NCBI RefSeq assembly: GCF_016918035.1
Contig: NZ_JAERWK010000021.1
Location: forward strand, 1 to 64,000
DNA length: 64,000 nucleotides
Reading direction: 5' to 3'
Source: Nakamurella leprariae
Lineage (GTDB): Bacteria; Actinomycetota; Actinomycetes; Mycobacteriales; Nakamurellaceae
The notes below the pieces were generated by a model. The model had not been told where the DNA came from and made no database searches. It worked only from the letters and a program-made list of their open reading frames with translations. The position numbers were made by a program, and so were the translations under genes. Positions 13,408-21,816 of the stretch are shown one piece after another; within the stretch, counting starts at the first letter, position 1; every line of letters starts with the position of its first letter.

Positions 13408-14097
13408 TCAACCGGACGCCGCGCCCGCTCCGGCCGTCGGGTCGGGTTCCTCGACCACGGTGAGGTCGAGGAACTGCTGCACGTCGATGACGCCGAGCAC
13501 CACCCGGGCCGGCGCCGGGATGCCGGCCCGGGTGCGGTCGACGACCAGCCGCGGATCGGTCAACGTGATCGTGCGACCGCGATGCACCACGGTGCACCCG
13601 CCGGCGGCGAGCACGTTGCGGACCCAGTCGGCGTCGGCGCCGTAGGTGAGTGCGATCCGGTACGCGGTCGGTCTGGTCGGAGCCCGCGCTCCCTCGTCCC
13701 TCGCTCGCGCGACTCCTCCGGTCGGTCTGGTCGCAGCCCGCGCTCCCTCGTCCCTCGCTCGCACGACTCCTCCGGTCGGTCTGGTCGCAGCCCGCGCTCC
13801 CTCGTCCCTCGCTCGCACGACTCCTCCGGTCGGTCTGGTCGCAGCCCGCGCTCCCTCGTCCCTCGCTCGCGCGACTCCTCCGGTCGGTCTGGTCGGAGCC
13901 CGCGCTCCCTCGTCCCTCGCTCGCGCGACTCCTCCGTCACCGAACGCGAAGAGGTTGATCGGCGTCCGGAACTCCCGCCCCGACCGGCGGCCCCGGTGCG
14001 TCAACAGCCCGAAGCCGGGCAGGGTCGGCGACACTCGACGCATCAGCTTGTTGAGTCCGACCCGGTTGGCCCGGGCCAGCGCGCGCGGCAACGGCAT
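13408..14097 (-). CDS. F420-dependent nitroreductase-family (DDN-like) protein with a repeat insertion
   Basis: Residues 1-56 (LPGFGLLTHRGRRSGREFRT) and the region after the insert (YRIALTYGADADWVRN, AGGCTVVHRG) make a standard deazaflavin (F420)-dependent nitroreductase-family protein of about 139 residues, with a split-barrel fold that binds F420. Between FGDG and YRI lie 90 extra residues: five 18-residue copies of an Arg/Ala/Gly-rich unit, encoded by 54-bp DNA repeats. The insert is exactly in frame and sits in what should be a surface loop. Whether the enzyme still works is unknown. ATG 14097 is supported by GAGGAG upstream. Convergent with the UbiB gene. Confidence 0.8.
   Translation of the reverse strand: MPLPRALARANRVGLNKLMRRVSPTLPGFGLLTHRGRRSGREFRTPINLFAFGDGGVARARDEGARAPTRPTGGVARARDEGARAATRPTGGVVRARDEGARAATRPTGGVVRARDEGARAATRPTGGVARARDEGARAPTRPTAYRIALTYGADADWVRNVLAAGGCTVVHRGRTITLTDPRLVVDRTRAGIPAPARVVLGVIDVQQFLDLTVVEEPDPTAGAGAASG
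13667..13936. repeat. Five tandem 54-bp repeats inside a coding region
   Basis: The unit begins GTCGGTCTGGTCG and ends GACTCCTCCG; copies start at 13667, 13721, 13775, 13829 and 13883. They are nearly identical. Copies 1 and 5 share GGAGCC, while copies 2-4 have GCAGCC, and copies 2-3 have CGCACGA against CGCGCGA, so the array is mosaic. Unit length is a multiple of three and keeps the host gene open. A diverged relative lies at 21409-21455. Confidence 0.95.
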
Positions 14098-14315
14098 GGC
14101 GGCTCCTCGGCTCACCGGCGGCACTACGCCGGTTCAGAGCACGATGCTGCCCAGGTCGGTGCGCCGCCGCCACCCCGCCGGCGCTCGCCACTCCCGCCCC
14201 GCCACGACGGCAGCGGCACCGCCTCGCCCGTCAGGAACGACGGGTCGTGCCGCTGCGCGTCGGACGAGGTCGGGGCGCAAGTCATGGCGTCGACCCCAGT
14301 GACGGGGGACGACAG

Positions 14316-19602: not shown

Positions 19603-19896
19603 GGTGCTGCACCCCTTCGGTGGACGTCGCGGGCTGGCACGTCCGCGCCGTCCGAGCGGGTCGTGACCCTCCGGTCGGCGGGCCGGTGCCGCTGTCAACC
19701 GTACGAGCCCGCGCCGCGACGCGCCGTGGCGGCGGCGTCGCCCGGTCGGCGCGCACCGAGATCTTGCCGTGGTCACCGTGCGGTCATACCCTGGCCCTAC
19801 TCGTCGGTAACAAGAGCTGCGACGGCCACCGTCGCGGCCGGTGACACCGGCGTCCACCCCTGATCAGGGCATGTGCACGACGAGGGAGTTCCGGCC

Positions 19897-21816
19897 ATGG
19901 GCCACTACCGCAGCAATCTGCGCGACATCGAGTTCAACCTGTTCGAGGTGTTCGGCGCCGACACCCGGCTGGGCACCGGCCCGTTCGTCGAGATGGACGC
20001 CGACACCGCCCGCAACGTGCTGCACGAGCTGGAGGAGCTGGCCACCGGGACGCTGGCCAACTCCTTCGTCGACGGCGATCGGCATCCGCCCGTCTTCGAC
20101 CCGGCCACCTTCTCGGTCCGCATGCCCGAGTCGTTCCAGCAGAGCTACAAGATCTTCCACGACGGCGAGTGGTTCCGGCTGGAGCTGCCCACCGAGCTCG
20201 GCGGGTACGGCGCCACCCCGTCCCTGCGGTGGGCCTGCGCCGAACTGGTGCTCGGCGCCAACCCTGCCCTGTTCATGTACTCCAGCGGCCCCACGTTCGG
20301 TGTCGTCGTGCACAACAACGGCACCGAGGCGCAGCAGGCGATCGCCAGGCACATGATCAACCAGAACTGGGGCGCCACCATGGTGCTCACCGAGCCGGAC
20401 GCCGGGAGTGACGTCGGCGCCGGCCGCACCAAGGCGCGGCTGCAGGCGGATGGCAGCTGGCACTTGGACGGCGTCAAGCGCTTCATCACCTCGGGCGACC
20501 AGGACATGACCGACAACATCGTGCACCTGGTGCTGGCCCGACCGGAGGGTCCGGGCGTCGAGACCCGCCCCGGCACCAAGGGTCTCAGCCTGTTCGTGGT
20601 TCCCAAGTTCCTGTTCGACTGGGAGACCGGGGAACTCGGCGAGCGCAACGGCGTCTACGTCACCGGCGTGGAACACAAGATGGGCCTGAAGGTCTCGACG
20701 ACGTGCGAGGTGACGTTCGGGCAGCACGACCGCCCGGCGGTCGGCTGGCTGCTCGGCGACGAGCACAACGGCATCGCGCAGATGTTCCAGATCATCGAGT
20801 ACGCCCGGATGATGGTGGGCACCAAGGCGATCGCCACGCTGTCCAGCGGCTACCTCAACGCCCTGGAGTACGCCAAGGAGCGGGTGCAGGGCGCCGATCT
20901 CGCCAGGTCCACCGACAAGACCGCCCCTCGAGTGACGATCCTGCACCACCCCGACGTCCGGCGACTGTTGATGCAGCAGAAGGCGTATGCCGAAGGACTG
21001 CGGGCGGTGTACTCGTACACCGCGCAGTGGCAGGACCGGGTGGCGCTCACCGCGGCCGACCAGGGCGGCGATCCGGCCGCGCACGCCGTGGCCCGGGCAG
21101 TGAACGACCTGCTGCTGCCAGTGGTCAAGGGGGTCGGCTCGGAGCGGGCCTACGAGCAGCTCTCCCGGTCGCTGCAGGTCCTCGGCGGCTCCGGGTACAC
21201 CCAGGACTACCCCATCGAGCAGTACCTGCGGGACGCCAAGATCGACACCCTGTACGAGGGCACCACGGCGATCCAGGCTCAGGACTTCTTCTTCCGCAAG
21301 ATCGCCCGCGACCGGGGTCGCGCCCTCGGGGTGGTCGCCGCGGAGATCGCCGAGTTCATCGGGGCGGCGTTCGCGGCCCGGCCCTCGGCCGATCGACCGG
21401 CGTCCGATGGTCGGGGCCCGGACTCGCTCGTTCCTCGCTCGACCGACCTCTCCGGCGATCTGACCGCGCTGCGGACCGCGCTCGAGGACGTGCAGGCCAT
21501 CGTGCAGACCCTGTCCCGCTACGCGGCCGAGGCCGCCACCGACCCGACGTCGGTGTACCGGGTCGGCGAGCATGCCGTCTCCCTGCTGATGAGCGTCGGC
21601 GATCTGCTCATCGGCTGGTTGCTGCAGCGCCAGGCCGGCGTGGCCGAGCAGGCGCTGGCCGGACGGGTCAGCGATGCCGACCGCGACTTCTACACCGGCA
21701 AGTTGGCGGTGGCGCACTGGTTCGCTCGGAACGTGCTGCCGCAGTTGTCGACCCGCCGCGCCGTCATCGAGGCGGCCGACACCTCGCTCATGGCGGTGCC
21801 GGAGGCCGCGTTCTGA
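19897..21816 (+). CDS. fadE5: Acyl-CoA dehydrogenase, FadE5 type, with a short inserted segment
   Basis: The 639-residue protein matches mycobacterial FadE5 along its length: [41 protein letters not shown] (FAD/substrate loop), [39 protein letters not shown] and [15 protein letters not shown] (catalytic Glu region). It oxidises acyl-CoA to enoyl-CoA using FAD in beta-oxidation; FadE5 accepts a wide range of chain lengths. Around residues 500-525 there are extra residues ([16 protein letters not shown]) where mycobacterial FadE5 has a short linker; their DNA resembles the 54-bp repeats at 13.7 kb. ATG 19897 follows GAGGGAG. Confidence 0.9.
21409..21455. repeat. Diverged single copy of the 47-54-bp coding-region element
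   Basis: Aligned without gaps, 38 of 47 bases match the core of the repeat unit in the DDN-like gene (GGTCGG-GCCCG...CTCG-CCTCGCTCG...CTCCGG). It lies in frame inside the acyl-CoA dehydrogenase, in the opposite orientation relative to translation. Confidence 0.65.

Follow-up and report, generated by a model that had tools for sequence, protein, structure and literature searches.

Why do two unrelated enzyme genes of one actinobacterium share a short stretch of DNA? The question is raised by a contig of Nakamurella leprariae (NZ_JAERWK010000021.1, positions 1 to 64,000; this 64,000-nucleotide stretch is hereafter the window), in which part of a gene for a FadE5-like acyl-CoA dehydrogenase resembles a repeat near 13.7 kb inside an open reading frame (ORF) of the deazaflavin-dependent nitroreductase (DDN) family. 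We found that both belong to a family of units of about 54 bp dispersed through the genome, and that protein genes carry such units as in-frame insertions. With a probability of about 0.78, we regard the element as a species-specific, non-autonomous mobile hairpin repeat that tolerates coding sequence and is akin to the repetitive extragenic palindromes (REPs) and the Rickettsia palindromic elements (RPEs). The latter are said to go back to Ogata and colleagues in 2000.

The initial annotation had reported an ungapped match of 38 in 47 positions between 21409-21455 and the 13.7-kb repeat. We recovered it on the plus strand, from 21409 against 13675, where the best match elsewhere in the window outside the array reaches 27 (plus strand) or 28 (minus strand), and the best match in 60 simulated 64-kb windows reached 32 (mean 29.3). 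The 47 bases that had been taken for the core are a real match, but they are only part of an element of 53 positions (Table 1). A profile built from the five units in the DDN-like gene alone recovers the FadE5 copy within a set of own-genome loci (18.8 bits, E 2e-4), and a covariance model, of which the copy is itself one of 54 training rows, gives it 70.8 bits. The FadE5 copy is not among the blastn matches of the whole DDN array.

A genome-wide search, proposed earlier as a check on whether the family is dispersed, finds many further copies. The central motif CTCGTCCCTCGCTCG, allowing at most one mismatch, has 59 matches in the genome, against five for its reversed control. The covariance model was built from 54 copies (alignment A1), with several tandem copies, the units of locus L087 and the poor copy L090 omitted; it gave 88 matches at E up to 1 and 78 at E<1e-4. 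The other ten, including the diverged 51-bp array of L087, are left out of all counts. The 78 copies lie at 55 loci, 42 of them single (C37:28415 is counted here although a poor second unit adjoins it) and 13 of them head-to-tail arrays of two to five units. Nine of the 13 arrays keep a strict 54-bp period; of the 23 intervals, 16 measure 54 bp and the rest 52, 53, 55 or 56 bp. The spacers, mostly 9 nt, are nearly identical within an array and different between arrays; from these locus-specific spacers, growth in place is the most likely origin of the arrays. Neighbouring copies within 2 kb of each other always point the same way. One array of three units has the tmRNA gene as a neighbour, at a distance of about 760 bp (L012 358-736 and 1497-1657). 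A separate 51-bp tandem array below the cut (L087 1413-1616; G000:C29:92413-92616) has the same CTCGTCCCTCGCTC loop with other flanks and is perhaps a second subfamily in this genome.

Each unit consists of a 5' tag GATGGTC, a 38-nt stem-loop and a TCCG tail, and conservation is strong from the tag to the tail and fades beyond. The stem-loop has an outer stem GGAG/CTCC, an inner stem of five pairs whose sequence is free but matched, and the conserved loop TCGCTCGTnCCTCGCTC. We found that this stem co-varies. Over its nine pairs, 91.2% of cells are standard pairs, and eight of the nine have undergone compensated changes; none of 500 shuffles scored as high on any measure, and sliding the partners abolished the signal. 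When one copy per locus was used (n=45), 38 cells were compensated, a count that never rose above 17 in 1000 shuffles. In the FadE5 copy, eight of the nine pairs are intact, one of them as G-T, and an A-T pair of the outer stem has become G-C. The copy in the isoleucyl-tRNA synthetase gene (IleS) has both stems largely rewritten yet fully paired. RNAalifold, unaided, recovered seven of the nine pairs and added two in the loop. Since the folding energy is unremarkable for GC-rich sequence, the covariation carries the argument for a hairpin, and since wobble-type mismatches occur in both senses, DNA and RNA are not told apart as the selected form. In Rfam, 11 own-genome loci gave no family at the element (E up to 1), and 12 other loci that carry the loop gave none over their whole length (E up to 0.1). 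The co-varying hairpin and the wide occurrence of its loop, described below, had not been noticed earlier.

Table 1. Window positions of the element and of the two genes that carry it
Feature	Position	Strand	Remarks
FadE5-like acyl-CoA dehydrogenase gene with insertion	19897..21816	+	ORF opens at 19873; ATG at 19897 aligns with relatives
Net insertion in FadE5	21397..21450	+	54 bp = 18 codons relative to the commonest congener linker length; placement ambiguous by a few bases
Element copy in FadE5	21404..21456	+	Sense with the gene; covariance-model match
Tag GATGGTC of FadE5 copy	21406-21412
Hairpin of FadE5 copy	21413-21450
Tail TCCG of FadE5 copy	21451-21454
DDN-like ORF	13408..14124	-	TIGR00026; interrupted in-frame by the array
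Array in DDN-like gene	13665..13936	+	Five head-to-tail 54-bp units, antisense inside the gene
Model matches in DDN array	13670-13722, 13724-13776, 13778-13830, 13832-13884, 13886-13938

We then compared the host genes with their relatives. The FadE5-like protein is identified by its acyl-CoA dehydrogenase domains and by solved relatives such as 6kpt. Extra residues had been suspected at this site, and the orthologue alignment bears this out: the stretch is missing from all 15 congeners aligned and from the 14 more distant relatives aligned (L039 against L040-L054 and L055-L068; the sixteenth congener, G008, was omitted because its match falls in two pieces). The linker varies in length among relatives, so the 18 residues are the difference from the commonest congener length. 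On these alignments the copy is a derived, not an ancestral, insertion of about 18 amino acids (54 bp). IleS is likewise 18 residues longer, at one point, than in all 16 congeners, of which three carry a separate short insertion just past the element site. Four congeners have a homologue at E<=1e-10 to compare with the DDN-like gene. None of the four has the array, which makes the product here about 89 residues longer, roughly 3 bp less than 5 x 54. Thus three genes carry derived in-frame insertions, two of them with 54 bp added. As with RPEs, these are in-frame insertions in conserved genes, and the aligned orthologues do not have them. With such clean empty sites in genes like the one for isoleucyl-tRNA synthetase, the family clearly exemplifies protein-coding hairpin repeats, here in a GC-rich actinobacterium. 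The DDN-like protein with its array scores 43.5 bits against TIGR00026, under the NCBIfam cut-off of 46.35, so such inserts may hide genes from annotation; it has no Pfam match and no PDB match. The same ORF contains, outside the element, a perfect 13-nt inverted repeat with an 8-nt spacer (window 13501-13534).

Twelve further hosts encode ResB, Maf, a luciferase-like protein, ornithine cyclodeaminase, UgpC, a relative of mycothiol maleylpyruvate isomerase (MDMPI), an MFS transporter, FbiB, GluQRS, the thioesterase region of a non-ribosomal peptide synthetase (NRPS), an SGL-family protein and an alpha/beta hydrolase. For these, the evidence is a family match that either extends across the insert or has one of its ends there, the congener alignments covering FadE5, IleS and the DDN-like gene. 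The family match ends near the insert in the SGL-family protein and the alpha/beta hydrolase, and the best thioesterase stretch of the NRPS starts directly after a four-unit array. Two ORFs with no family match (L015 and L028) are excluded from the total of 15 hosts. PDB alignments at residue level are available for six hosts: homologues of FadE5, IleS, UgpC and Maf are gapped at or near the insert, the GluQRS match is merely split there, and the best chain for FbiB covers the C-terminal domain only. The FbiB insertion (L153, residues 237-276) resembles a dimer with a diverged second unit.

Across the 15 hosts, all six reading frames of the element are used. The element is read in the sense direction in FadE5 and antisense in the DDN-like gene, with both frames open, as had been described, and the proposal of a dispersed family tolerating coding regions in either orientation is supported by this set. 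The share of element cores open in all six frames, 45 of 55, compares with 40% for 45-mers drawn at random from own-genome loci and 32% for cores after shuffling; GC-richness therefore accounts for part of this openness, not all. One short element can thus be read in six frames without closing the frames of its hosts. Given the open frames and the presumed essentiality of IleS, we infer that the host proteins are still made and active.

How might such a family have spread? We propose that the element inserted at about 55 places in the genome, its units spreading as hairpin-forming single strands, and that an enzyme acting in trans would recognize them by their conserved tag and loop. Insertions in genes would survive where the 54 bp, a multiple of three and usually stop-free in all frames, fall in a length-variable loop of the protein, and many other copies would have settled beside stop codons, as REPs do. 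Flanking target duplications, suggested earlier as something to look for, are not general, since 33 of the 42 single copies have no excess flank match; this makes single-stranded hairpin mobility of the REP kind likelier.

Several points weigh against this reading. Movement itself was not observed, and mobility is what we infer. The 33 single copies whose left flank does not start with TC show no duplication (97 matches against 92.6 expected, 252 of 1000 permutations as high). A mobilizing enzyme was not found: PF01797, the Y1 family of the REP-associated tyrosine transposases (RAYT) and IS200-type enzymes, has no match in the genome, this being the helper family that was searched for among the transposases. 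The copies from which we drew the stem by eye also served to test it, the RNAalifold consensus energy is weak (-2.27 kcal/mol), and the stem energy is unexceptional for its GC content (consensus as RNA, z -0.5 and -1.9 for the two strands; FadE5 copy, z 0.55 and 0.15). Gene calls are also crude for copies outside recognized families. Elsewhere, PF01797 has matches in one of 17 genomes of the genus and in 5 of 14 control genomes; the sole match in the genus (L165; G016:C9:135685-135969) has an internal stop.

Location relative to genes bears on another explanation, in which the unit is a functional RNA element, such as a 3'-end stabilizer, terminator or processing hairpin, selected near stop codons, and the genic copies are by-products. 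A simple codon-usage gene caller placed 25 of the 78 copies inside genes, 9 at an edge and 44 outside, the five DDN copies being wrongly among the last. All nine edge copies overlap a predicted gene 3' end, and in five of them the tail reads TCA, which is a TGA stop on the other strand. Six loci lie between convergent genes, 0-21 bp from at least one stop. These positions suit an RNA element, as do the covariation of the stem and the occurrence of the loop inside large terminator-like hairpins in other genera. However, genic copies are found in either orientation and in each of the six frames, the aligned copies show no T-run 3' of the stem, neither strand is clearly more stable than its shuffled versions, and the congeners have no comparable family. 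We therefore consider an RNA function possible but unlikely as the origin of the family.

Alternatively, the unit could be a miniature inverted-repeat transposable element (MITE) of a cut-and-paste (DDE) transposon with 9-bp target duplications (45 + 9 = 54). The mostly 9-nt array spacers fit this arithmetic, and over the 42 single copies the flanks match in the 54-bp register more than expected (151 against 131.5; 4 of 1000 permutations as high), with 7-8 of 9 bases agreeing at three loci. The signal comes from the nine copies whose left flank starts with TC, the beginning of the element's own tail (54 against 40.5, 0 of 1000 permutations), and the other 33 have none. We interpret these nine as remnants of shrunken arrays, from which such a signal is expected. 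Moreover, the near-consensus copies (L024, L026 and L032) agree at 1-3 of 9 flank bases, and long terminal inverted repeats were not seen, the short GGAG/CTCC stem being all that was found of this kind. A nine-base target duplication is thus rejected as missing from most single copies, and a MITE is improbable. Spread from a few ancestral copies by recombination or gene conversion between repeats, without transposition, seems no better placed. Arrays that are nearly homogeneous within a locus and different between loci indicate that local recombination probably acts, but conversion requires a homologous target, which FadE5 and IleS of the congeners do not offer at the site. The genome is GC-rich and the loop internally repetitive, yet a resemblance between GC-rich coding sequences that is due to chance or composition is refuted, and so is slippage confined to the locus: the match of 38 in 47 exceeds the simulated maximum of 32, the loop has 51 exact matches in this genome against none for the reversed pattern, and the orthologues align without the segment.

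We next consider the mobile hairpin repeat beside known systems. Mycobacterial interspersed repetitive units (MIRU) are tandem repeats of actinobacteria, about 50-100 bp long and situated near the ends of genes; they are mainly intergenic and have a small-ORF role. Compared by description only, the element is like them an actinobacterial tandem repeat, and MIRU differ in being mainly intergenic. MIRU are named in the accessible parts of Cozzuto et al. 2008 (PMC2267715), which describe Cod-2 of Corynebacterium diphtheriae, a genic stem-loop of 32 bp with 43 members. According to the same parts of that paper, Cod-2 is read in different frames and was likened by its authors to RPEs. It is thus an actinobacterial precedent for a protein-coding hairpin repeat, shorter than our 54-bp element and compared with it by description, not by sequence. 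RPEs, as far as the available text of PMC2229807 goes, are palindromic repeats that have joined conserved protein genes in-frame and left them open, with target duplication not established, all of which our element shares. RPEs are, however, 105-146 bp long (PMC2229807, same text), whereas the element here has 54 bp, is GC-rich and actinobacterial and is read in all six frames.

The element also resembles REPs. Di Nocera et al. 2013 (PMC3733652), in the portions accessible, distinguish GTAG and CGTC super-families of dispersed short stem-loops that carry an unpaired terminal tag and a short tail. Those portions place them near gene 3' ends, where they sometimes supply stop codons, and some copies inside genes, tRNA synthetases included; CGTC repeats are described there as having no dedicated transposase. 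Our element is likewise a short palindromic stem-loop (38 nt) in many dispersed copies (78 at 55 loci), and the TCA tail of the five edge copies, a TGA stop on the other strand, parallels the TAG of GTAG REPs (PMC3733652, same portions). Unlike in REPs, the loop is conserved while the stem drifts, the arrays are head-to-tail, and the tag GATGGTC is neither GTAG nor CGTC. Since neither the tag nor a RAYT links it to the published REP super-families, we do not file it under them. The main text of PMC3733652 mentions neither Actinobacteria nor Mycobacterium. In literature on REPs, intragenic palindromes, interspersed or selfish repeats and MIRU, with most subscription journals outside the search, we recognized no description of the element. 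As far as this literature goes, the family seems new, with its 54-bp unit, head-to-tail arrays and a conserved loop on exchangeable stems across the class.

Within the genus, blastn with the array left 15 of the 16 congeners without a match at E up to 0.01 and gave three weak ones in G014, with at most 17 candidates scored per genome. The covariance model with stricter filters gave weak matches in six of the 16, the best (2.9e-4) being a tandem pair in G012. Sequences of G012 and G014 have the same loop on different stems, and one of two matches in G013 (L138) retains the tag GATGGTC with a GCGG/CCGC outer stem and a longer, irregular middle; those in G004, G005 and G008 resemble chance coding sequence. 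Remote relatives may therefore exist in the genus, but a comparable family was not seen among the 16 congeners. A consensus pattern that 27 of the 78 own copies satisfy in full had no match in viral contigs, nor in a collection of 84,980 species (own and very near genomes excluded), from which diverged families would escape.

The loop itself is widespread. We found CGCTCGTnCCTCGCTC in 67 of 394 genomes of the class and in 13 of 296 genomes of the phylum (own genome included in both), in the class mostly on other stems. Exact copies number up to 42 in another genome, compared with 51 in this one, and the reversed control gives 0-1 per strand. Of the 40 stretches matched by a longer loop pattern, 36 belong to Microbacterium, Arthrobacter or Pseudarthrobacter. 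We also compared the pairing of the two flanks of the loop with that of mismatched flanks at 59 of 63 loci, with roughly one locus per genome and four dropped because their flanks were short. True flanks pair more stably (mean -21.7 kcal/mol) than mismatched ones (-19.2 kcal/mol), a difference reached in 0 of 200 permutations. Related genomes are among the 59, which are therefore not independent cases, and some are chance matches. Tentatively, CGCTCGTnCCTCGCTC could be a class-wide recognition module: one machinery would read the loop while stems are repeatedly replaced, giving lineage-specific hairpin families, one in this species and others in Microbacterium, Pseudarthrobacter and further families, and unit length with six-frame openness would let the element enter genes as conserved as IleS. 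The shared loop, a fixed 16-base sequence, offers a concrete handle for finding the mover of RAYT-less REP-like elements. In two other members of the class, the loop occurs in tandem arrays with periods of 83 bp (L092, G123) and 62 bp (L168, G628). In several genomes (L179-L188), it lies inside a large terminator-like hairpin (GGGGGATGCCGG...CCGGCATCCCCC).
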